Of a DNA stretch of 52,569 nucleotides, positions 4,203 to 52,569 are shown in pieces. The notes under the pieces were generated by a model. It saw only the letters and a list, made by a program, of their open reading frames with translations. It was not told the DNA's origin and ran no database searches. Made by a program: the position numbers and the translations under genes. Location of the stretch: the IMG/VR virus record IMGVR_UViG_3300031539_000044, positions 1-52,569 of that record. One strand, 5' to 3'. The DNA is from a virus. How positions within the stretch are numbered: position 1 is the stretch's first letter; each line of letters opens with the position of its first letter.

Positions 4203-4343
4203 TTACCATTTATAGCGCCCATTAAAATACTTTCTCATCCCCCCTTTACTAATAGTCATTTGCTCTTTTTCTTTCTTGCCTTTATAGATATTCCAAGCGA
4301 TCATTGCTACAAGCCAGGCAAAAACAATGTAAACAAAAGTCAT
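4203..4343 (-). CDS. Small single-pass membrane protein (variant 1)
   Basis: 46 residues, starting MTFVYIVFAW with an AAGGGGTGATTCT ribosome site. Residues 3-19 are hydrophobic (one membrane span, N-out/C-in by the positive tail 'YKGKKEKEQ'). A near-identical 45-residue variant is encoded at 52397-52534; the two differ only in the last ~10 residues. It lies upstream of the ATPase gene. Function is unknown. Confidence 0.7.
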   Translation of the reverse strand: MTFVYIVFAWLVAMIAWNIYKGKKEKEQMTISKGGMRKYFNGRYKW

Positions 4344-4378
4344 AGAATCACCCCTTTATTTATTATTAATTCGAACCT
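4252..4378. repeat. 127-bp perfect direct repeat, internal copy
   Basis: These 127 bases are identical to the last 127 bases of the window (52443-52569). Just outside, at 4251 versus 52442, the base differs (A versus G). The length 127 is a common k-mer size in de Bruijn assemblers, and the second copy ends exactly at the contig end. This points to a graph overlap rather than a biological terminal repeat. Confidence 0.9.
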
Positions 4379-38808: not shown

Positions 38809-40068
38809 TTAAAATATTCCCAGCTCTTCGGCGTTATAGGCCTTTTCTCCTTCCTTTTCAAAAATCCTGTCGTTGAGGGCATAACGGACCTGATCCATAA
38901 AGTGATTATTTTTATCTATCGGCACATTAATGACATTCCCATCTTTATCCTTTTTCCATTGATACAGTTGAATTTCGTTGATTGCATTCTGGCATTTCCG
39001 ATCAATTATGATTTCAAATTGTTTCATATATTGAATACCAAAGTTGACACTTCCCGGCCCCTTCTTGGCCGCCAAGGCATTTATTCCATAACCCCTCAAT
39101 TCTGCTATTGATTTAGGTTCAGAAGAATCGCACCTTATATATTCCTTACCGATATCCGGTTTTAGCCTTGATGCTATAACATCATTGGTTAATCCTAGCT
39201 CATATAATAATTCCTGCAGTATATATAATTTCTTCCCCTTTATTGCCTGCCTTCCTGCTGCAGTAGGATCATTCGCAAATCCAAAATCAAGCCCGTTATA
39301 ATAGGTCCCGAAGGTATTTTTAATTCCGGTAAGATCTTCAATCTTCCAATTGGTAAAAATCAAATCTCCTAAGATTCCCCAGTTCCCTAAAGTATAAACT
39401 TCTCTATAATAAGGGTCCTGTTCGTTTTCTAATTCATCAATATCGTCCTGTTCTAAGAATCTTAGGTTATCTTTGTAGGTTGTTTTTAAAATCGATAATT
39501 TATCGTCGTGATATTCGGTTTCGCCTTCTACCCAGTTTTTGAAATATTCTTTGAATATCCAGTGGGTCCGGAAAATGGGATTGAAAACCATAGTCAGACG
39601 TTTTAATACTTTAGCCCTGCCCCTCAATCTCTTGTATAATTGTTTGACATCATCCCTTTTTGTTTCGGTTGCTTCTTCTATCAGGATATCGGTAATGACT
39701 CCTTTCTCCGGGATGATTGATTTGAGTTTTTCCGCATCGTCTAGCCCTCTGAAAAGGATCTGATATCCGGTAATACAGGTTATGGTCATTTCTGTTTTGT
39801 GAATCTTGAATAATCTTTCCAGATTAAATGATAAAATAATCTTCCTGATTTCATTGAATACCGATGTTCGCAAGGTATTGGCCGTATTCCTGATTACAAG
39901 ATAATTTCTATTATTTTCTAAAAGATCAATTACGCACCTTTGAGAAATAAATACCGATTTCCCGGCAGAACTGCCTCCGAAAAATATTTGCGTTCTAATG
40001 GTACATCCCAGATAAGGGATATAAGCTTCATTAAAAATTTTTTTAGAGATTTGTATATTAACATTCAT
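38809..40068 (-). CDS. terL: Terminase large subunit
   Basis: 419 residues. ATPase: Walker A 'FFGGSSAGKS' (~29-38), Walker B 'DILIEEATE' (~127-135), motif 'LTMVFNPIFRTHW'. Nuclease: 'NGLDFGFANDP', 'YIRCDSSEPKSIAEL', 'NHFMDQVRYAL' supply the acidic triad. PBSX/SPP1-type. It overlaps terS by 4 bases. Confidence 0.93.
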   Translation of the reverse strand: MNVNIQISKKIFNEAYIPYLGCTIRTQIFFGGSSAGKSVFISQRCVIDLLENNRNYLVIRNTANTLRTSVFNEIRKIILSFNLERLFKIHKTEMTITCITGYQILFRGLDDAEKLKSIIPEKGVITDILIEEATETKRDDVKQLYKRLRGRAKVLKRLTMVFNPIFRTHWIFKEYFKNWVEGETEYHDDKLSILKTTYKDNLRFLEQDDIDELENEQDPYYREVYTLGNWGILGDLIFTNWKIEDLTGIKNTFGTYYNGLDFGFANDPTAAGRQAIKGKKLYILQELLYELGLTNDVIASRLKPDIGKEYIRCDSSEPKSIAELRGYGINALAAKKGPGSVNFGIQYMKQFEIIIDRKCQNAINEIQLYQWKKDKDGNVINVPIDKNNHFMDQVRYALNDRIFEKEGEKAYNAEELGIF

Positions 40069-40514
40069 TCAGTTAAATCTACTTTAACTTTTATAAATTC
40101 GGGTATATCAAGTCTATGTCTTTCTGCCGGATATATTCCCATTAATTTAGCTTCTTCTTTGGTTATTTCCAGGATCAGGCCCAGGTCCTCTACTTGCTTT
40201 ATTTGCTTATTGTCTACCGTACCGATTACAACTTTTTTAGAAAAGGCCATATCTTTTAGATCCCTTATTTGTGCTATGTGGTAAGCGATTCCATCACCCT
40301 CTAATTTTTCGAAATATTTTCTCCATTCTTTTCGTGCTTTCTTAATGTATATATTAGCTTGGGCTCTTTCAATACCCCAATTTTGTCTACAATAATCTAC
40401 AATAAAGCTAGTCGGTTTTCGCCTTAACATTAGGCCTACCTGGTAGACCCTTTTTTCAACCTCTACCATGTCAGATTTTTTCTTTTTTTCTTCTATGCTT
40501 TCTTCTTCTGCCAT
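40065..40514 (-). CDS. terS: Terminase small subunit (probable)
   Basis: 149 residues with AGGTGTTAGATT upstream. Helical; an N-terminal HTH-like region 'RRKPTSFIVDYCRQNWGIERAQANIYIKKARKEWR' (in parts) fits DNA-binding small terminases, then a charged oligomerisation tail. Immediately upstream of terL. Confidence 0.75.
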   Translation of the reverse strand: MAEEESIEEKKKKSDMVEVEKRVYQVGLMLRRKPTSFIVDYCRQNWGIERAQANIYIKKARKEWRKYFEKLEGDGIAYHIAQIRDLKDMAFSKKVVIGTVDNKQIKQVEDLGLILEITKEEAKLMGIYPAERHRLDIPEFIKVKVDLTE

Positions 40515-40517
40515 AAT

Positions 40518-41201
40518 CTAACACCTTTCATCTTTTTCAAAACTTATGATCCCGTCAAAATATTCTTTATAAAAATCATATATTCCTTTGGCTATAGTCA
40601 GGCAGGAGTTTTCTGTCCTGGGATTAGTATTAATATTTGCGCTGCTTTCTACTGCAAAGGCAAATTTCTTTCCATACCCGGCTATGATCTTCGCATGGTT
40701 TCTAAATATCACAAACCGGCCTTTATATTTCTTGATTATCGGTTTTAATAAATCGTATTCCGCGCTATAAGATCCTTTAAATATTTCTCCCACATAAGCA
40801 TCCATTGTTTTTATTTTCCCGGCCTTTAGCCATTCCTCTATCTGTAAGATGTCATCTTGGGCCATGCACCAGGTAGAAAATAAACAATGCTCCAAATCCT
40901 GCTGCCTCAAAACACATTTTAAAAATGATAAAATATCTACATCCCCAGTGCTAATCGTATGGTAGCTTTCGCCTTCTTTAAAATTAAAACCTAATACATC
41001 TAAAAGCTGGGTTTCGCTAAAGGCCTTTCGATATATATTTTTATCTCTTCTGACCGTACAAATAACGTTCCTTCGGATCTGTTTTTCTATCGGCTTTTCT
41101 TCTTTTTCGGCTTCGCTACCAAACTCTAACGAATCAATATTAATCTCGTTGTGCATTATGGCTTCTTGAAATTTTATTTCTTCCAGATCTTCTTCTTTCA
41201 T
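40518..41201 (-). CDS. PLD-like nuclease-superfamily protein
   Basis: 227 residues after AAGAGGGGAAAAAATAAT. 'KGRFVIFRNHAKIIAGYG' gives one H-x-K motif, followed by 'FAVESSANINTNPRTENSC', the S/N-rich half of a phospholipase-D-type site. Single HKD domains usually dimerise as nucleases. It sits just upstream of terS, so a role near packaging or DNA end processing is likely but not shown. Confidence 0.75.
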   Translation of the reverse strand: MKEEDLEEIKFQEAIMHNEINIDSLEFGSEAEKEEKPIEKQIRRNVICTVRRDKNIYRKAFSETQLLDVLGFNFKEGESYHTISTGDVDILSFLKCVLRQQDLEHCLFSTWCMAQDDILQIEEWLKAGKIKTMDAYVGEIFKGSYSAEYDLLKPIIKKYKGRFVIFRNHAKIIAGYGKKFAFAVESSANINTNPRTENSCLTIAKGIYDFYKEYFDGIISFEKDERC

Positions 41202-42366
41202 ATTATTTTTTCCCCTCTTGCCCGGGCCATTCTCAAAGCCCCCGCTTTTCTTTTTAAAAGTTTCCTTAATTTCGGATATCCCAAAAGCCTATCAAATTCT
41301 TTTGCATCCTTCCCAAACCAATATTCAAATTCTTCCATTGCTGAACCGAATATTCCCCCGCCTTTCGGGGATACTGTAGCCTTGGTAGAAGAATGCCATC
41401 CCCTTATCGCTGGGAATCCTTTTCTTTTTTGTAACGTCCATTTCTCACCAACATATATTCTTTTTGGGTCAATATTTAAAATGGGCTGGTATCTCATTGG
41501 AAAAGTCGATACACTCGTTTTCATTTCCATATTTAATCTTACTGTTTCCCGGAGTCTATAATAAAAATCTTCTGGAGTGTCTTTATAGTTATAAAGTGCA
41601 TAAGTCATAAATTCTTTAAATCCTCTTTTTACAAGCATCCAAACCGCCCTTTGGTAATAACCATCTTCCTGCATATTATCAAATGCGAATCTGACCAGGT
41701 ATATTGGCAACCCTTTTAAAAGATCTGCAATTTCTTCGGTCATTAACCGAGCATCAAGCCCCTGGTTAAAATCTATTCTTTTAATCTTGCCACTTTTTAT
41801 AAGTTTATGTAACTTTACAATATCCCTCTTTAAATCAACTCTTTTTTTAGCCAGCCAATTATTATCATAGAATAAAACTTTATCAACACCTAGGGCTATG
41901 TCCTTCTCCCAATTAGTCCGGTTTTCAAATTTCGGCTCTAATTTATTAACCATACAAAACCCACAATTTCTAAGGCAGCCCCGACTGGTGTGCGATATGC
42001 TATATTTCGGCTTTTCTCCTAAAAGACTATAATCGGGGCTAAATTTTTCAGCATCCGGTAATAACCCTGAATAAACTTCAACGCTTTCCTTTCTGAAAAG
42101 ATCCGGTAATAATGTCGCCGATATACCCCCTACAATGACTTTAGAAGCCCTTTCCTTTGCTGCCTTCAATATCCCCAGGGCATGGGGAATATCGTAGGTA
42201 AATGTCGTTGTGATCCATATTTCATCAAATTCTCCGGCCTTTGGTAATCGATCATTAAATATCTGGCAATCATCACCAAGCGATTTACGCCAGGCCCCTA
42301 TTTTTAATAAGGGCAAAGGGTATAATTTAGCCTTCGGCGTGCTCTATCAACTAAAGCAATCCGCAT
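41198..42366 (-). pseudogene. Radical SAM protein 1, -1 frameshift near its start
   Basis: The main frame (from a TTG at 42316, with no ribosome site) gives 372 residues with the radical SAM motif 'SRGCLRNCGFC', 'KVLFYDNNWLAKK' and 'FNQGLDARLM'. The true start is almost certainly the ATG at 42366, with AAAGGAG upstream inside the parB-like gene: it reads MRIALVDRARRRLNYTL, matching the N-terminus of the paralogue at 44060-44965 (MKIGLFDIDSK...LALMKLS). A -1 shift around 42314-42318 joins the two. It may be a real mutation, a sequencing error, or programmed slippage at CCCTTTG. Confidence 0.75.
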
Positions 42367-42911
42367 CGTCTTAAAACTCCTTTACCCATTCCCGGGGCCG
42401 TCTTTTGTTCTCCATTGGCCAGCCACTCTAAAACCTTTTCTTTGTGCATCGCGGGAACTGTTATCTTTATATCCTGCTCCTCATATCCATTAAGAGTATC
42501 GGCCTGCTCATCCATTTCCGAATAATCCTCGGCTTTTGGCATCCCTTCGCTTATTCCTTCTACTTCTACACCTAAATCCTTTAATAAATCTAAATCCCAT
42601 TCGTTGGCCAGGATATCATAATCCCAATCTCCGAATGGGACATTATCAAGGATCTTAAATTTTTCTTTTTCTTCTTCGGATAGTTCGTTTGCTTTTACAA
42701 CCCAGCCTTCCGGGATCTCTTTATATCCTAGTTCTATTATGGCCAAGTATCGCATATTCCCGCCCAAGATCATGCCATTATCATCAATTATGATCGGCCT
42801 TAACTTCATCATCTTCGGAAATTCTTGAATATTCTTTTTTAACTTTTGATATCGATCATCTTTTATATATCTCGGGTTATTTGGATTTATTCTAATGTCT
42901 TTTATATTCAT
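42351..42911 (-). CDS. ParB/Srx-type nuclease-fold protein
   Basis: 186 residues from the ATG at 42911, with AGAAAGGAAAATT upstream; a longer frame to 42950 starts within the terminator. 'IKDIRINPNNPRYIKDDR' and 'MILGGNMRYLAIIELGYKEIP' (GGxxR motif) match the ParB-N domain usually fused to DNA methyltransferases; here it stands alone, with a C-terminal extension. Its gene directly precedes the radical SAM gene and overlaps it. First gene after conserved leader copy C. Confidence 0.75.
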   Translation of the reverse strand: MNIKDIRINPNNPRYIKDDRYQKLKKNIQEFPKMMKLRPIIIDDNGMILGGNMRYLAIIELGYKEIPEGWVVKANELSEEEKEKFKILDNVPFGDWDYDILANEWDLDLLKDLGVEVEGISEGMPKAEDYSEMDEQADTLNGYEEQDIKITVPAMHKEKVLEWLANGEQKTAPGMGKGVLRRCGLL

Positions 42912-42930
42912 AATTTTCCTTTCTAAAAAT

Positions 42931-42996
42931 AAAAAAAGAGAACCACCCAAAGAAGTATTAAACTTCTTTAAAAATGGCTCTCTATATTGGAGCTCT
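42931..42996 (-). terminator. Conserved leader: box AGAGCTCCA plus terminator hairpin (copy C)
   Basis: Box at 42988-42996, then GAGAGCCA, inner stem AAAGAAG/CTTCTTT, TGGTTCTC (a G-U wobble instead of copies A and B, keeping the pair) and a seven-base T-run. It precedes the ParB-like/radical SAM/terminase block. The compensating change in the stem supports a selected RNA structure. Confidence 0.75.
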
Positions 42997-43027
42997 ACGA
43001 ATATTTAATTTTTAATTATTGATTATG

Positions 43028-43375
43028 CTATATGGTTTCTTCTTTATAATCCTCCTCAGATTCATCTAAACCCAATGAATAACTATGTTCAACCTCTATA
43101 TAACCTATTGCTTTAAATATTGCTACATAATAAACATAGTCTGGCATATCAGGGCTATCATATTTATCTACCACTTTCTTCCATCCTAAAAATTCAGCTT
43201 TAAAATATAACTCCTGACCCGGCTCATCTGTTGATATATCATAAATATAACCTATCTTTAGCTTTTCATCTGTCCACGTTCTATTGTCTCCTTCTCCATG
43301 ACACTTTCTCCAAATAATAGGAGTATATGTTGTATCTCCATCCTTTGGCAATCTTTTAAATATCTTATCACTCAT
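43028..43375 (-). CDS. Hypothetical protein
   Basis: 115 residues, starting MSDKIFKRLPKDGDTTY; the start overlaps the Com-like gene stop (ATGA). A beta-rich N-terminus 'YTPIIWRKCHGEGDNRTW' and acidic C-terminus ('SLGLDESEEDYKEE'). No family recognised. It is the last gene before conserved leader copy C. Confidence 0.55.
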   Translation of the reverse strand: MSDKIFKRLPKDGDTTYTPIIWRKCHGEGDNRTWTDEKLKIGYIYDISTDEPGQELYFKAEFLGWKKVVDKYDSPDMPDYVYYVAIFKAIGYIEVEHSYSLGLDESEEDYKEETI

Positions 43376-43551
43376 TCCTTTAACCTCACAATTAATTTAT
43401 CTGGATTCTGATAATCAACTATATTTATCGCTTCGCAGCGGTCTCTATAACATTTAATCTCTATCTTGGTAATTCCATCGGTATTGTCCTCTGGTAATAG
43501 AAAAAAAAGGTTTTTACCACAACTTGCGCACCTTACTTTTATCCTTTTCAT
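43372..43551 (-). CDS. Com-like zinc-finger protein
   Basis: 59 residues, starting MKRIKVRCASCGKNLFF after a weak GGTGGTTGATATAAA. Cysteines in 'VRCASCGK' and 'IKCYRDRCEA' give four zinc ligands, as in Mu Com, which activates translation of the mom modification gene by opening its mRNA. There is no mom here, but radical SAM genes follow. Assignment by motif. Confidence 0.7.
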   Translation of the reverse strand: MKRIKVRCASCGKNLFFLLPEDNTDGITKIEIKCYRDRCEAINIVDYQNPDKLIVRLKE

Positions 43552-43592
43552 TTTATATCAACCACCTTAATTAGTCAATTCACTTTTATTTC

Positions 43593-43772
43593 TCAATCAA
43601 CTTTACCTAAAAATTTTCTAAATCGTTCACTTTCTAAATAATGATTTATTGTTATTAACTCTTCAGCGATAATGAGTATCAATTCATTATGGGTTTTATT
43701 AATTATCTCTCCTCCTGCCTTCTCCATACATCTCCTAATCTCTATTATCCTTTCTTGGTTAGAACTAGCCAT
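43593..43772 (-). CDS. Small hypothetical protein (59 aa)
   Basis: Starts MASSNQERII after AGGAGGTGG. Helical and charged ('INKTHNELILIIAEELI'). It lies between the VRR-NUC and Com-like genes in the same direction. Confidence 0.55.
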   Translation of the reverse strand: MASSNQERIIEIRRCMEKAGGEIINKTHNELILIIAEELITINHYLESERFRKFLGKVD

Positions 43773-43782
43773 AATCCACCTC

Positions 43783-44082
43783 CTATCCTATTATTTTTAT
43801 CAAATCTTCCAAACAGTCTATTAGATAATATTCCCCTTTTTGATATGTAATATTCCGTTCAAAATCTATCTGGCTAGGAGATTGTGTTCCACCCGGTTTT
43901 TTTGCTTCAAGATATACGGTGCGCCCATTTTTTATAGCTATAAAGTCAGGTATGCCATCATAAGAACCTAACCCTTGTAAATTCCAGAACCAAAACCAAC
44001 CTTTGATAGTCAAATAATCCTTTATTTGGGCTTTGACATCATTCTCGCTTATCTTGAATTTAAATCTGAGTTTTCTTTTCAT
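43783..44082 (-). CDS. VRR-NUC domain nuclease
   Basis: 99 residues from the ATG at 44082 (AAGGGGCAAT upstream). PD-(D/E)xK core: 'VKAQIKDYLTIKGW', 'GLGSYDGIPDFIAIKNG' (Asp), 'TVYLEAKKPGGTQSPSQ' (E-x-K) and 'GEYYLIDCLEDL'. VRR-NUC enzymes resolve branched DNA or cut at structured sites. It overlaps the radical SAM 2 stop by 23 bases. Probably a recombination nuclease for late replication. Confidence 0.85.
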   Translation of the reverse strand: MKRKLRFKFKISENDVKAQIKDYLTIKGWFWFWNLQGLGSYDGIPDFIAIKNGRTVYLEAKKPGGTQSPSQIDFERNITYQKGEYYLIDCLEDLIKIIG

Positions 44083-44965
44083 ATTGCCCCTTATAATCTT
44101 CCCATTCACAACTTCTATTGATCCAGGGATTATTCACCCATCTTATAAAATCTTTATATCTTCTACTTTTTAATTCATTATTGTAATTCATAACATAAGC
44201 CTTGATTGATCCCCGGCTGTCCTTAATGCCTCTTAATACTTCTACTCTGTAAAGATCCTCTTCAAAGTTAGAATTAAACCCGATTAAGACATACATAGTT
44301 ATATTTCTCGGCCTGATCCCCGCTTTAATTATAAGTTTTAACCCTTCTCTTACTTTGTATTCGTCTTTAACATCATCCCATGCAAATCTTATTGTTTTAT
44401 AATGTTTCACTTTGGCCAGCAATTCAGAATTTTCTTTATTGATCAGCCGGATATCAAGACCTTGGTTAAAGTCCATCACCCAACCTTTTTTAATATACTT
44501 TTTCAGTTTTTCAACATGAGAAGGTAGGGCTAGGAAATTGTTATCAAGTAGGATCACGATATTAAATTTAGGATTAAGAAATTCTTCCACTTCTGCGTGT
44601 TCTCTGATATAGCCCTCTTTTTGCCTGACGATACAGAAGCCACAATTTCTGATACAACCTCGAGTAGTAAAACCCAAAGAATAATTAAGATTATATAAAT
44701 CATAATCGGGTTTGATATGCTCTATCTCTTCGGGTAATACATTTGAATTGAATCCTGATCCACCACAATACATATCCCTTCTAATATAACCATCATTTTT
44801 ATTAGGTTTTTTGAATATTTTAGAAACGTAAATCTTACCATAGGTATTAATCCATAAAGGATTATAAAATTCCACCTCATCGCCCTTTTGCTTATGGTAA
44901 GTAGATAATTTCATTAATGCTAAATTATGGTACTTGCTATCGATATCAAATAAACCGATCTTCAC
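44060..44965 (-). CDS. Radical SAM protein 2 (B12-binding-like family)
   Basis: 301 residues from a GTG at 44965 (GAAGGTGATAAACT upstream). N-terminal alpha/beta region (MKIGLFDIDSKYHNLALMK), then the Cys motif 'TRGCIRNCGFC' (~102-112) for the 4Fe-4S cluster, 'IVILLDNNFLAL', 'DFNQGLDIRLI' and 'TIRFAWDDVKDEY', matching the other radical SAM gene. Family members use SAM radicals for unusual modifications. It is a paralogue of 41198-42366. A role in DNA or virion modification is suggested by context only. Confidence 0.85.
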   Translation of the reverse strand: MKIGLFDIDSKYHNLALMKLSTYHKQKGDEVEFYNPLWINTYGKIYVSKIFKKPNKNDGYIRRDMYCGGSGFNSNVLPEEIEHIKPDYDLYNLNYSLGFTTRGCIRNCGFCIVRQKEGYIREHAEVEEFLNPKFNIVILLDNNFLALPSHVEKLKKYIKKGWVMDFNQGLDIRLINKENSELLAKVKHYKTIRFAWDDVKDEYKVREGLKLIIKAGIRPRNITMYVLIGFNSNFEEDLYRVEVLRGIKDSRGSIKAYVMNYNNELKSRRYKDFIRWVNNPWINRSCEWEDYKGQYEKKTQI

Positions 44966-44982
44966 AGTTTATCACCTTCTTT

Positions 44983-45189
44983 TTAGCCTAATATTTCCTT
45001 CCTTATTTTTTGTTCGATTTCCCCTTGTTTCTTTTCCTCTTGTGATTTATTGACCAAATTTTGGGATAAATAAAAAGGACTTGTTCCTTTATATGTTTTA
45101 GATTCATAATTTTTCTGCTTTTTGATTTTCTTGGCCCTTCGTCTATCTTTGAGCCATTTTTTCTTTTTTAGAAAGCTCAATTTGTCCAT
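44983..45189 (-). CDS. Small basic protein
   Basis: 68 residues, starting MDKLSFLKKKKWLKDRRR after AGGAAAATGAATA. Very basic N-terminus and a Glu/Gln tail. Possibly nucleic-acid binding. Upstream of the radical SAM 2 gene. Confidence 0.5.
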   Translation of the reverse strand: MDKLSFLKKKKWLKDRRRAKKIKKQKNYESKTYKGTSPFYLSQNLVNKSQEEKKQGEIEQKIRKEILG

Positions 45190-45192
45190 TAT

Positions 45193-45420
45193 TCATTTTC
45201 CTTTCTTATCTTTATTTTCTTCCAAGCTTTTTTTATATCTATAAATTTCAAAAAAATCTTCTGATGTTAAATCCATTACAGAAACATAAGCCCCTGGTAA
45301 GCTTGAACCACCATATGCTCCAGCTCTTTTTTCTATAATCACTAAACGCTTATCATACCCATCAGTTAATCTATCATTCTTTACTATTGCATTAAGAATT
45401 TCTATACTTTGTTTATTCAT
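45193..45420 (-). CDS. Small hypothetical protein
   Basis: 75 residues after GGAAGGAAAAAATTAA. Mixed composition ('AIVKNDRLTDGYDKRLVII' in parts, 'GAYVSVMDLTSEDFFEIYR'). No family recognised. Part of the leftward run toward the terminase block. Confidence 0.5.
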   Translation of the reverse strand: MNKQSIEILNAIVKNDRLTDGYDKRLVIIEKRAGAYGGSSLPGAYVSVMDLTSEDFFEIYRYKKSLEENKDKKGK

Positions 45421-45579
45421 TTAATTTTTTCCTTCCTTAATTTTTATATCCACCCTAACGATATTAGGATTTACCCGATAAACTTTTATCAGTTTATCCT
45501 TAGAATCCATTCTATTTACGGTGTCCTGGTAAAGGAACAATTCTAATAATTCTTTTACCATCTGCTCAGTGCTTTCCAT
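45421..45579 (-). CDS. Small hypothetical protein (52 aa)
   Basis: Starts MESTEQMVKELLELF after GGAAGGAGATTGAA. Ends one base before the next gene's start codon. Helix then beta ('LIKVYRVNPNIVRVDIKI'). Unknown. Confidence 0.55.
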   Translation of the reverse strand: MESTEQMVKELLELFLYQDTVNRMDSKDKLIKVYRVNPNIVRVDIKIKEGKN

Positions 45580-45604
45580 TTCAATCTCCTTCCTTTTTTA
45601 ATTT

Positions 45605-45847
45605 TTAAAATAATATTTGCCCCCCTCTATGAGAATAGATGAGCTCGTTTATCTTCTTGTATTGGTCCGGGTTTATAAGTGGCAGCCTTTTTCTCATGTC
45701 TACCCAGACGGTAGTTACGGAAACTTTAAATTTTAACGCGGTAGTTTTCAGGGTTACATTGTTCCTTAGCATAAATTCAGACTCATCAAATACCCTTTCC
45801 ACAATACTTTTAGAAAAATTTGAATCAATATTAACCTTAGATCTCAT
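45605..45847 (-). CDS. SpoIIID-like DNA-binding protein
   Basis: 80 residues, starting MRSKVNIDSNFSKSIVERV after AAAGAAAGGAGGAAATAAATC. The centre 'LRNNVTLKTTALKFKVSVTTVWVDMRKRLP' (in parts) and 'LINPDQYKKINELIYSHRGG' follow the SpoIIID pattern (TvR.tAk.f.VSksTVh.D...RLp...). SpoIIID controls mother-cell sporulation genes in Bacillota. A phage copy may regulate phage genes or interfere with spores. This is the main clue to the host. Confidence 0.7.
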   Translation of the reverse strand: MRSKVNIDSNFSKSIVERVFDESEFMLRNNVTLKTTALKFKVSVTTVWVDMRKRLPLINPDQYKKINELIYSHRGGQILF

Positions 45848-45869
45848 GATTTATTTCCTCCTTTCTTTT

Positions 45870-46136
45870 TTAATTTGGATCAGTTCTGCCGATCTTGATT
45901 TCTTTAATCTCCTCATCGGTATAAATTCCCAGTTCGGCCTCAATCGCTTTTAATCTCTTTTCAAAATCTATAAGAGTATAAATTATATGCTTAAAAAGTG
46001 CTGATCCTCTACCGGAAATATTTGGTTGACTTGCCACCAACATTTTTAAATTAAATTTTAATTTCTCAAATTTTTCATCTTCAAGCCCGCAATGTTTTTT
46101 ATACTTCAATTTTAATTCTTCTAAATTTTTATTCAT
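45870..46136 (-). CDS. Hypothetical protein
   Basis: 88 residues, starting MNKNLEELKLKYKKHCG after GGGGGTAGTTAA. Helical, with a single Cys; 'ISGRGSALFKHIIYTLIDFEKRLKAIEAELG' (in parts). No family recognised. It abuts the HTH gene at 46137 by one base. Confidence 0.5.
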   Translation of the reverse strand: MNKNLEELKLKYKKHCGLEDEKFEKLKFNLKMLVASQPNISGRGSALFKHIIYTLIDFEKRLKAIEAELGIYTDEEIKEIKIGRTDPN

Positions 46137-46514
46137 TTAACTACCCCCGACTTTCTCAATAAAATCTTGAACCAAAAACTTGTCATGTACAGTCTCAACC
46201 ACCTTATAATATTTTATATATTTATTATTTATCCTGGTATTCTCCTTTCTCTTGGTCAGTAATTCTGGACTTAATGTTTTCTCAAAAGCGATGAGTTTTT
46301 TCTCCTTTTCTGTTTTTTGATCCTTCAGAGGTTTAAAATATCTCCTCTTATAGTCTCTCTTTCTGCCCCACTTTCTTAATAAACTGTATATGGTAGTAAA
46401 AGATACTCCATACTCCTGGGCAATTTTTAATATCCGTATGTCCTGTTTATCCTTCTGGATTATTGCCTCCCGGTTAGCTATTAACATTTTATGAATTCCA
46501 ATTCTACCTTTCAT
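46137..46514 (-). CDS. HTH-containing regulatory protein
   Basis: 125 residues after GGGAGGCATGAAGG. A helix-turn-helix is visible in 'RILKIAQEYGVSFTTIYSLLRKWGRKRDYKRR' (in parts), of the resolvase/Homeo-like type; the rest is basic. It is the gene directly after the structured element at 46543-46623, so its expression may depend on that leader. Confidence 0.6.
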   Translation of the reverse strand: MKGRIGIHKMLIANREAIIQKDKQDIRILKIAQEYGVSFTTIYSLLRKWGRKRDYKRRYFKPLKDQKTEKEKKLIAFEKTLSPELLTKRKENTRINNKYIKYYKVVETVHDKFLVQDFIEKVGGS

Positions 46515-46542
46515 CCTTCATGCCTCCCAATTATATTTTTAT

Positions 46543-46623
46543 AGGCCCCCCGGTTAGGTGCTTGAACCAGGAGCCAAAGTTCGGGTTTTTGGAAACCCCC
46601 AACCCCACCTTGCAGAGGGGCCT
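46543..46623. other. Structured intergenic element, family I (copy 2)
   Basis: Outer stem AGGCCCC (46543-46549) with GGGGCCT (46617-46623); conserved blocks CGGTTAGGT (46551-46559) and ACCTTGCAG (46607-46615), shared with 4573-4650 (CGTTTAGGT/ACCTTGCGG). The outer stem differs completely yet still pairs, evidence of a conserved RNA or DNA structure. Inner stem GGGTTT/AAACCC. Leader of the leftward HTH gene; the plus strand has T-runs after it. Confidence 0.6.
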
Positions 46624-46624
46624 T

Positions 46625-47161
46625 TTAATTTTTCTTATTTTTTATAATATCAAGAAATTGATTTTTACTTTTGGTAATATTTTTTTTATTATTTTCAATT
46701 TCTTCTTCGCTTAATTTCTTTATCATTCTTAAATCATTCTTAATACATTCTTGTTTATGGTCGTCTGTGGGTCGTCTGTGGGCCGTCTGTGTGTCAGTCT
46801 GTGTGTCAGTCTGTGTGTCATTTTTTGGTTCTTCACCTTGATAAATGTTATAATTCATAATAGTTACAACTGTATATCTGTGTGTTATTCTGTATGCTAT
46901 CATTTTGTCAATTTTTAGACCTTTTATGAAATTATTTAGGTGAGAACGTGTCCAGCCAAACATCTCCATCAGCTTCTTTTTAGACGTTATAAACTGACCT
47001 CTTTCCACCTTGATATATTCATTCCTCATATTAACTATTCCTGATTTATGGTTGGCCTGGCTGTATAAATAAGCCCAAGCATACCCATCACACCAGGGTT
47101 TTTTTGATATCCAGTGTACGAATTGCCCCCTATATAATCTTGTCCAGCCCTTATTTTTCAT
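46625..47161 (-). CDS. Replication-initiator-like protein with winged-helix N-terminus
   Basis: 178 residues, starting MKNKGWTRLYRGQFVHWISKK after AAGGTTAATTAA. The first ~100 residues resemble DnaD/replication-protein-O-type domains of phages ('CDGYAWAYLYSQANHK', 'GQFITSKKKLMEMFGWTRSHLNNFIKGLK' in parts). Then 'DTQTDTQTDTQT', encoded by a 12-base repeat, and a basic linker 'AHRRPTDDH'. It would bind the origin or load the helicase. No helicase gene is seen in the window. Confidence 0.7.
   Translation of the reverse strand: MKNKGWTRLYRGQFVHWISKKPWCDGYAWAYLYSQANHKSGIVNMRNEYIKVERGQFITSKKKLMEMFGWTRSHLNNFIKGLKIDKMIAYRITHRYTVVTIMNYNIYQGEEPKNDTQTDTQTDTQTAHRRPTDDHKQECIKNDLRMIKKLSEEEIENNKKNITKSKNQFLDIIKNKKN
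46760..46823. repeat. 12-base tandem repeat within replication gene
   Basis: Imperfect units of TCAGTCTGTGTG/TCGTCTGTGGG on the plus strand encode the D-T-Q-T linker and neighbouring Arg/Pro residues. A short in-gene repeat is a frequent property of phage initiator genes, where origin iterons may lie inside the gene; here it could also be a length-variable linker. Confidence 0.6.
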
Positions 47162-47165
47162 TTAA

Positions 47166-47510
47166 TTAACCTTCATTTAGATCTTCTTCCAAAACGAAAT
47201 CAGTTTTCCCCATAGTGTAGGCAACTAAATAAGCAAACCCATATTCTTGCCTTTCTATATCTACAAATTCAATAATGTTATAGTCATCATCATAATCATT
47301 ACTATTTATGGAGAATATTGTTTGAAATACTAACTTCCTTCTACCCATTACATAACCAATTCTTTCTTTTTTTAATTCAATAAATTCCCTTCTTTCTAAT
47401 GCTTTTTCTTCACCCTGCTCAAAATCTGGTACATCAAAATATTGCATATTTATCTCTATCTTTTTCGATATCCTTTTATACTTAACTTTCTGACCTAACC
47501 TAAATTTCAT
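47166..47510 (-). CDS. Hypothetical protein (114 aa)
   Basis: After AAAAAGGGGGTGATTTAAAATT. Starts MKFRLGQKVKYKRI, an SH3/KOW-like opening; beta-rich with 'RREFIELKKERIGYVMGRR' in the middle and 'TDFVLEEDLNEG' at the end. Possibly a nucleic-acid-binding small beta barrel. Unknown. Confidence 0.5.
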   Translation of the reverse strand: MKFRLGQKVKYKRISKKIEINMQYFDVPDFEQGEEKALERREFIELKKERIGYVMGRRKLVFQTIFSINSNDYDDDYNIIEFVDIERQEYGFAYLVAYTMGKTDFVLEEDLNEG

Positions 47511-47573
47511 AATTTTAAATCACCCCCTTTTTATAGAAATGCCAATATTTTTTATAGTTTATTTTTAGAAAAA

Positions 47574-48254
47574 TTATAGAACTATTTTAGGAAATTCTTT
47601 TATCTCTACCGGATAAATTTCTTTTAAGCTGTCCTTTAGATAAACCGGGATTTTATTTTCTTTACAGCAGTTAACAATATCTTCAATCCATTCCTTTTTT
47701 GGTATTATCTTGCCTTTTCTATTCCCAGTCTCACTTCCCAAGATTACCCAATTAATTTTTTGATAGATTATGCTAAAAAAATGTCCTGTATTCATATATT
47801 CAATATATCTTGCATCAATTTTTTCTAATATCGGTTCTATGCTGATAAATTTAATCCTGTTTCCACAAGTAAAATCCATCTTATAAAGTTCATCATTATT
47901 GACAACGGTCGCTCCCAACCAGCAATTTTCGGGGAATTTATATCTTAAATATACTTCCGGGTATTTAGTCAAAAATTGAAAAATATGTTGAGGATATTGC
48001 CTAATCTTTTTTAATACTTGAAACATCCATTTTTCTTCCCAATGTGCTGTCTCACTCATACTCCCTACGAATATTCGCTGAGGTTTACTGGGGAACGTTT
48101 TATTAAAACTATTTTCTCTCCATTCTGGTTTATTCCAATCTTCAATAAATTTAAACCTATTATTTATCCTTCTTGCATAGCAATAACTACAATTGTTTTT
48201 ACATCCAACTACCGGATTAAAGGTCATCGAACACCACCCAATTTTATTTTTCAT
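47574..48254 (-). CDS. DUF5131 / Gp37-Gp68-type radical SAM-like protein
   Basis: 226 residues after GGAAGGCTAAGAAG. 'IGWCSMTFNPVVGCKNNCSYCYARR' (in parts: 'VGCKNNCSYCYARR') carries the radical SAM-like Cys motif, followed by 'IFVGSMSETAHWEEKW', 'HIFQFLTKYPEVY', 'CWLGATVVNN', 'ISIEPILEKID' and 'WVILGSETGNRKG', the DUF5131 (phage Gp37/Gp68) signature. Function of the family is unknown. It is the third Fe-S/SAM-type protein in the window. Confidence 0.85.
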   Translation of the reverse strand: MKNKIGWCSMTFNPVVGCKNNCSYCYARRINNRFKFIEDWNKPEWRENSFNKTFPSKPQRIFVGSMSETAHWEEKWMFQVLKKIRQYPQHIFQFLTKYPEVYLRYKFPENCWLGATVVNNDELYKMDFTCGNRIKFISIEPILEKIDARYIEYMNTGHFFSIIYQKINWVILGSETGNRKGKIIPKKEWIEDIVNCCKENKIPVYLKDSLKEIYPVEIKEFPKIVL

Positions 48255-52396: not shown

Positions 52397-52534
52397 CTAC
52401 CAGCGAAACTTTCCATTGAACTTCCGCATCCCCCCTTTACTGATAGTCATTTGCTCTTTTTCTTTCTTGCCTTTATAGATATTCCAAGCGATCATTGCTA
52501 CAAGCCAGGCAAAAACAATGTAAACAAAAGTCAT
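52397..52534 (-). CDS. Small single-pass membrane protein (variant 2)
   Basis: 45 residues with AAGGGGTGATTCT upstream. Identical to the 46-residue variant at 4203-4343 for the first 37 residues, then 'KFNGKFRW' instead of 'KYFNGRYKW'. This is the first gene after the shared 127-bp segment in this branch. Confidence 0.7.
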   Translation of the reverse strand: MTFVYIVFAWLVAMIAWNIYKGKKEKEQMTISKGGMRKFNGKFRW

Positions 52535-52569
52535 AGAATCACCCCTTTATTTATTATTAATTCGAACCT
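52443..52569. repeat. 127-bp perfect direct repeat, terminal copy
   Basis: Identical to 4252-4378 and ends exactly at the window end. Read as an assembly-graph overlap, it joins 52569 to 4379 and would close a circle of 48,191 bases; see the copy at 4252-4378. Confidence 0.9.

Follow-up and report, generated by a model that had tools for sequence, protein, structure and literature searches.

Introduction

Phage genes that couple a ParB-type domain to a DNA methyltransferase (PHROG families 498 and 620) and lie in front of the terminase genes are of a known kind. Radical S-adenosylmethionine (SAM) enzymes also have a place in DNA modification: some phages hypermodify their thymidine by routes with radical SAM steps, and 7-deazaguanine DNA involves QueE. 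Among cellular defence systems, DISARM is defined by DrmA, DrmB and DrmC together with a DNA methyltransferase. One account (PMC10853773) places DndC outside the radical SAM superfamily and describes DNA cytosine methylases that replace phosphorothioation in some DndDE systems. Here, a viral contig is analyzed (IMG/VR record IMGVR_UViG_3300031539_000044; its whole stretch of 52,569 nucleotides is termed the window) in which the pre-terminase slot holds a gene for a ParB-like protein and, overlapping it, a gene for a radical SAM protein termed rSAM-B. This candidate DNA-modification cassette shares its place and its ParB-type N-terminal domain with the phage ParB-DNA methyltransferase genes, and the two are cleanly exchanged between sister phages. 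In contrast to those genes, it has a radical SAM protein for its catalytic part, encoded by a separate, overlapping gene and not by a fusion. A literature search that was mostly confined to papers outside subscription journals and bioRxiv found no description of this family acting on DNA, or of a radical SAM protein as the modifying part of such a cassette.

Results

ParB and rSAM-B are paired in front of the terminase genes

Open reading frames (ORFs) were called with a simple greedy script. Genes in this part of the window are encoded on the minus strand and head toward the terminase and portal genes (Table 1). The first gene of the cassette had been annotated as ParB-type, which was confirmed by phrog_620 (E 1e-22) and by a profile of 12 ParB relatives that matches solved ParB/Noc structures at 1.6e-9; the match to Pfam ParB_N (E 4.3e-4) is below the cut-off of that family. 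A structure model of the window protein (predicted local distance difference test, pLDDT, 73) matches ParB/Noc (1e-5 to 1e-3) and, less strongly, sulfiredoxin. Judged from profiles and model, the protein is a carrier of the ParB N-terminal fold, and cytidine triphosphate binding, DNA clamp formation or nuclease activity may come with it. The second gene, rSAM-B, matches phrog_9298 (41198-42316, E 5.2e-40). It had been described as one open gene, a description that had to be dropped: the ATG overlapping the ParB stop codon is out of frame with the remainder, the break lies within the first codons and the open frame begins at a TTG at 42316. This break may be a real disruption or an assembly error, and because of it the window's own rSAM-B may be inactive; uninterrupted copies are present in the relatives L041 and L121.

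An alignment of four relatives was used to search for viral relatives; it matched 462 viral loci, of which the 80 best were retained. The close rSAM-B clade comprises 16 viral IMG/VR contigs (L003, L121-L134 and L140). Its 15 rows have full support in the Shimodaira-Hasegawa-like approximate likelihood ratio test (SH-aLRT) of a tree that was built by a 'quick' method from the 136 rows left once near-duplicates, weaker relatives among the viruses and short rows had been removed. A ParB gene, recognized with a hidden Markov model (HMM), lies directly upstream of rSAM-B in 12 of the 16 contigs and one gene away in L133; the other three (L128, L132, L140) begin in or too near rSAM-B for ParB to be judged. 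As some contigs are near-copies (L124/L125, L126/L127, L131/L140, L132/L133), the direct pairing represents about ten separate lineages, plus a metagenome-assembled genome contig (L041) and the window. The overlap of the two genes measures 16 nt in the window, in L041 and in 11 of these 12 contigs; in L122 it is 4 nt. In the window, the ParB stop codon thereby sits within the rSAM-B start, and the ParB tail GKGV encodes AAAGGAG, which resembles a ribosome-binding site. Identity among the rSAM-B proteins ranges from 39% to 72% (median 47%, 13 proteins), and the guanine-plus-cytosine (GC) content of their loci from 0.34 to 0.67, which indicates that the overlap geometry was preserved over a long divergence. 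Thirteen of the 16 contigs, as well as L041 and the window, have a large terminase gene at most 2 kb downstream, with PHROG families 2, 15, 38, 979 and 3717 as best matches where scanned. The contigs for which it is not shown are L126, which is cut off, L132 (a copy of L133) and L140 (a copy of L131).

Two apparent features of the pair were discarded. A 735-aa ORF in L131 resembled a ParB-rSAM fusion; over its N-terminal part the frame is open only by chance, the DNA being GC-rich, and the ParB gene of L131 lies in another frame with the usual overlap. The ParB tail GxGxGVxKRCGLL was considered as a functional peptide, and its conservation is mostly explained by the ribosome-binding-site-like stretch and the rSAM-B start codon that lie inside it. 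The tail of L122, where the overlap is 4 nt, has no Cys and retains GRGIMKR.

The cassette is exchanged with a ParB-methyltransferase fusion

The sister contig L017 is approximately 90% identical to the window up to position 42918, where DNA homology ends, and approximately 80% identical from position 41205 on, where it resumes. The intervening slot holds a single 452-aa ParB-N6/N4 methyltransferase fusion (Pfam) in L017, and ParB plus rSAM-B in the window, in which none of three methyltransferase HMMs gave a match. The GC content of the swapped block is 0.37-0.42, compared with 0.29-0.33 on the upstream side.

The slot could also be followed through the relatives of a second radical SAM gene of the window, rSAM-A, which is present in 27 IMG/VR contigs. 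These are mostly close relatives and therefore not independent, and many are partial. Together with the window, 16 of 28 rSAM-A loci carry a ParB gene; the other 12 have none in the stretch covered, several because the contig ends. ParB is fused to a methyltransferase in six of the 16 loci and followed by a radical SAM protein in ten, with three radical SAM families in all. Six of these ten (L006, L007, L008, L009, L013, L028) encode ParB, a methyltransferase-like 185-aa protein and a radical SAM protein of 276 aa resembling spore photoproduct lyase (SPL), upstream of the terminase. Three (L005, L010, L011) encode ParB and then a third, 404-aa radical SAM family with its own N-terminal domain, directly before the terminase, and the window is the one locus with ParB followed by rSAM-B.

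Predicted fold of the rSAM-B family

The fold was modeled on the intact L121 relative (pLDDT 94.8) and not on the window copy. The model consists of a Rossmann-like N-terminal domain of B12-binding type and a radical SAM TIM barrel. Its nearest solved structure is AprD4 (Z 23.1, 338 aligned residues, 3.0 A), followed by MgmA (Z 21.8, 310, 3.6 A), TsrM (Z 19.5, 320, 3.0 A), MiaB (Z 18.9, 313, 3.9 A) and OxsB (Z 17.9, 377, 4.7 A). MgmA, TsrM and OxsB match most of the model, and the corrinoid-binding protein 1y80 matches residues 1-107 (Z 9.7). Single-protein sequence searches of the PDB returned no radical SAM match. The cysteines of CxxxCxxC are invariant in all 58 aligned sequences, including rSAM-A and rSAM-B of the window, as are, among others, E143, D167, N169, D198-F-N-Q, D204, R225, D229, M290, W309 and G79-G80. 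By this model, the family layout is that of cobalamin-type radical SAM enzymes, and cobalamin use and methyl transfer would follow only from the fold. The best match, AprD4, calls for caution on both, being a dehydratase that is not known to need cobalamin. The family shares CxxxCxxC and the full-length fold with TsrM and MgmA (class B) and with AprD4, which act on peptides, proteins or sugars; it differs from them in its low identity (11-15%), the lack of a DxHxxG motif (0 of 58 sequences) and a C-terminal helical part of its own.

A methylthiotransferase of the MiaB/RimO type was also considered. The likeness consists of the fold (Z 18-19) and a weak profile match. TIGR00089, with a cut-off of 251, scored only 11.6 on rSAM-A, and rSAM-B was not among the matches listed. 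The three extra cysteines of the auxiliary cluster are not conserved in the rSAM family: beyond CxxxCxxC there is no conserved cysteine, the next cysteine column being occupied in 14 of 58 sequences. This reading was rejected on that ground.

Cellular relatives are found in operons of defence type

A scan of 84,980 species genomes yielded at least 476 relatives of rSAM-B, and the best 80 were analyzed. The recurring operon types were NurA-HerA-HATPase-rSAM, ParB-nuclease-SNF2-ParB-rSAM, helicase-DndD/PbeC-rSAM, DrmA-DrmB-NERD helicase-rSAM-HATPase and DndB/DpdB-rSAM. Partners were recognized with PADLOC or Pfam (DrmA 3.5e-161, DrmB 1e-52, DpdB 1.5e-36, PbeC 2.1e-135); the labels NurA and nuclease (136 aa), both without a database match, were assigned from context. 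The radical SAM family itself was matched by PADLOC in none of nine members scanned.

Neighbours were tested with HMMs for 12 families within 6.5 kb. At least one DNA-modification or defence neighbour is present in 67 of the 80 loci, a count that is partly by construction as the HMMs were built from the same loci, and at least two are present in 44. For comparison, one MiaB/RimO stretch was taken from each of 20 genomes, out of 30 searched among the genomes that contain the relatives; two of these 20 had at least one such neighbour (a weak HATPase match, E ~8e-6) and none had two, so that the defence neighbours are not general background. Methyltransferases are rare in the 80 loci: HMMs for amino-methyltransferases matched in four, a looser motif in nine and the C5 methyltransferase motif in none. 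When context labels were placed on the tree, 58 changes were needed, compared with a mean of 100.5 for shuffled labels, indicating that the enzyme has moved between system types.

Part of the cellular loci resemble DISARM in having DrmA and DrmB beside the relative. A DrmA-type helicase, DrmB, a NERD helicase and the radical SAM protein, mostly with a HATPase, are encoded in eight loci (L088, L098, L099 of Gemmiger sp. An50, L109, L113, L114, L116, L147). Unlike in DISARM, no methyltransferase was detected with the HMMs in the cellular loci of this type, and the NERD helicase, HATPase and radical SAM protein are present. The window itself gave no HMM match for DrmB, a DrmA-like helicase or a methyltransferase. 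Likewise, DndB/DpdB and DndD/PbeC-like neighbours liken other loci to Dnd and Dpd systems, from which the presence of a radical SAM protein sets them apart. The arrangement of NurA, HerA, an HSP90-like ATPase and the radical SAM protein was seen in L050, L054, L056, L059, L063, L065, L066, L070, L084 of Clostridium guangxiense and L039; in Marinitoga camini virus 1 (L034), HerA and NurA accompany the radical SAM gene and the ATPase is missing. Among the host lineages that carry a name, many are anaerobic, which would fit an oxygen-sensitive enzyme.

Other genes of the region and the rSAM-A module

Among the ORFs of the window longer than 100 aa, CxxxCxxC occurs in three only: rSAM-A, rSAM-B and a DUF5131 protein (CKNNCSYC). 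The model for radical SAM mobile pair protein A (TIGR04471) gave a score of 126.9, below its curated cut-off of 355. The initial annotation had recognized two related radical SAM proteins, and both do match phrog_9298 (rSAM-A at E 2.9e-79), with 27% identity to each other (E 4e-27) and a position in different clades of the tree. Its DUF5131 and VRR nuclease assignments also held, the former with Pfam PF07505 (123.2 bits, cut-off 28.9) and the latter, of Holliday-resolvase type, with phrog_93 (E 8e-14) and phrog_5702 (E 0.0012). For the proposed Com-like zinc protein, a match to phrog_6417 ('translational regulator', E 6.9e-8) was obtained, but the match to phrog_13819 ('gpCom', E 0.012) and hence the link to Com are weak. 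The PLD-like gene gave only weak PHROG matches (E 4.2e-6, unknown function; E 1.3e-5, 'endonuclease') and no Pfam match, and its HxK motif was seen by eye.

All three iron-sulfur genes had been suggested to belong to one base-modification or repair pathway. They vary independently across contigs, and the single pathway was therefore rejected: rSAM-B was found in none and DUF5131 in nine of the 27 rSAM-A contigs, many of which are partial. What remains of the base-modification idea is ParB with rSAM-B, on the evidence of the methyltransferase swap and the cellular operons. Co-occurrence in other phages was similarly found for this pair and for rSAM-A with a nuclease, but not for the whole gene set.

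A PD-(D/E)XK-type nuclease follows rSAM-A in 26 of 27 contigs, L030 having none. It is a 144-aa protein resembling phage endonuclease I in 24 (Pfam E 6.7e-6, below the cut-off) and of VRR type in two, and it lies directly after rSAM-A in 23 contigs and past one to three small ORFs in three. The named phages with rSAM-A keep this link only loosely. In vir520 a resolvase is directly upstream, in BKO1-TP3 a VRR gene lies 1.3 kb away, and in PV4-TP1, vir215 and NatCom_21982 no such nuclease is annotated adjacent to rSAM-A. Genes resembling 3'-phosphoadenosine-5'-phosphosulfate reductase recur within a few kb of rSAM-A (L008, L012, L018, L024, BKO1-TP3 (L031), PV4-TP1 (L035) and NatCom_21982 (L033)). 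Homologues of the Com-like protein are found in 11 of the 27 contigs. In having a Com-like zinc protein close to a putative modification gene, the region recalls the Com-mom arrangement of phage Mu; in contrast to Mu, the match to Com is weak, no Mom emerged from the part of the window proteins that was scanned, and Com also occurs in phages without rSAM-B.

The DUF5131 protein also matches the PADLOC candidate-defence models PDC-M41B and PDC-M30B (~105 bits) and has relatives in 88 phage records; a literature search combining DUF5131, radical SAM and phage found no paper. The phage records searched contained no close DNA relative of the window, and no tRNA was found in it. Gp3-like proteins near both contig ends (1003-2628 and 49637-51349) are 87% identical, and the final 150 bases (52420-52569) repeat positions 4229-4378 at 98%. 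Judged from these repeats, the genome is probably circular or circularly permuted and ~48 kb long, and the contig runs once around it into an overlap that varies between strains.

Table 1. Features of the pre-terminase region of the window
Feature	Coordinates	Strand	Basis or remark
Terminase large subunit	38809..40068	-	PHROG; 1.1 kb downstream of cassette
Probable small terminase subunit	40065..40514	-	By position; also in L004, L017
PLD-like/endonuclease-like protein	40518..41201	-	Weak PHROG; common to L017
rSAM-B, B12-binding-like N-domain and radical SAM barrel (CLRNCGFC)	41198..42366	-	One frame break near start
Swapped block (no homologous DNA in sister contig L017)	41205..42918	-	DNA comparison
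ParB/Srx-fold protein, first gene of cassette	42351..42950	-	PHROG, profile, model
115-aa protein just upstream of cassette	43028..43375	-	Common to L017; left flank of swap
Com-like zinc protein	43372..43551	-	PHROG
VRR/PD-(D/E)XK nuclease	43783..44109	-	PHROG; overlaps rSAM-A end
rSAM-A (CIRNCGFC), separate clade	44060..44965	-	phrog_9298
DUF5131 / Gp37-Gp68 radical-SAM-like protein	47574..48254	-	Pfam; no link to cassette

Discussion

ParB and rSAM-B are proposed to form a phage DNA-modification cassette, a reading to which a probability of roughly 0.58 is given. The ParB-like protein would bind phage DNA and, being made in step with rSAM-B through overlapping translation, would bring to it a putative SAM-dependent [4Fe-4S] enzyme with an N-terminal domain of cobalamin-binding type. 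Late in infection and immediately ahead of packaging, this enzyme would modify bases of the DNA, and the modification would probably shield the DNA from host nucleases. Thereby rSAM-B would fill the role that the ParB-coupled DNA methyltransferase has in the sister phage. The likeliest chemistry would be carbon-methylation of class-B type, to which about half the probability of the cassette itself is assigned. Three observations point to DNA as the substrate: ParB as the partner gene, a ParB-methyltransferase in the slot of the sister contig, and defence proteins that act on DNA as neighbours in cells.

Several points weigh against this proposal. Genomic context shows association and not substrate. 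The cellular loci are the best 80 of at least 476 matches, their neighbour count is in part circular and 13 of them have no neighbour of the kind sought. More distant viral relatives have, in the set L144-L182, mixed neighbours and mostly do not lie beside ParB, and the window copy carries a frame break. As for the chemistry, the cobalamin motif is missing throughout, though this is not decisive. According to the structure titles, the top fold match AprD4 dehydrates sugar diols and is no methyltransferase, the substrate of MgmA is a protein and that of MiaB is tRNA.

The same fold matches, MgmA on protein, MiaB on tRNA and RimO on a ribosomal protein, would allow rSAM-B to modify a protein or RNA, such as a packaging or capsid protein or a tRNA, with ParB as only a translational neighbour or regulator, and the cassette does adjoin the packaging genes. 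This explanation is rather unlikely, as the same slot holds DNA methyltransferases in sister phages and the cellular relatives stand beside HerA, NurA, SNF2, DndB/DpdB, DndD and DrmA/B and not beside translation genes. Alternatively, rSAM-B might repair DNA by undoing a lesion in the manner of SPL, instead of adding a mark. This would accord with the different, SPL-like radical SAM protein that occupies the ParB slot in six of the 16 ParB-bearing rSAM-A loci, and HerA and NurA are DNA-end-processing proteins. Repair is nevertheless considered improbable: a mark is the better fit to the methyltransferase replacement and to the operons that resemble DISARM, Dpd and Dnd systems, and SPL itself aligns with a Z of 9.6, compared with 18-23 for the full-length folds of cobalamin type.

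Viperin, which is among the radical SAM fold matches (Z ~10), raises the idea of a product, either a small molecule or an altered nucleotide, that would poison the polymerases of the host or of rivals, and relatives in defence-type operons would suit such a role. Viperin, however, aligns only with the common barrel (residues from ~117 of the L121 model), and this reading, which is held to be very improbable, would account neither for the N-terminal domain nor for ParB as the partner or the position before the terminase. There is an equally slim chance that the cassette, as a mobile insertion, is neutral or in decay and by now dead in this phage, as the broken frame and the GC step between the block and its upstream side could suggest; against this, the same overlap geometry is kept in 11 other viral contigs and the three cluster cysteines never vary.

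Beyond the cassette, a wider proposal is made tentatively and at somewhat less than even odds. Many self-marking systems that are unrelated in other respects, most of them in anaerobes, might have one cobalamin-fold radical SAM family as their DNA-modifying subunit. This family would replace methyltransferases in phage ParB cassettes and DISARM-like operons, serve NurA-HerA-HATPase, ParB-SNF2 and Dnd/Dpd-like systems, and make a DNA base of a kind not yet found. PADLOC, one catalogue of defence systems, misses this family, and the proposal provides a direct, testable prediction for the large set of unexplained operons that contain its relatives. Radical SAM chemistry can alter unactivated carbon atoms; if the proposal is true, such chemistry would act directly on DNA as a mark of self and non-self, in phages as well as in bacterial and archaeal defence operons, and the resulting new base would be visible to mass spectrometry or single-molecule sequencing.

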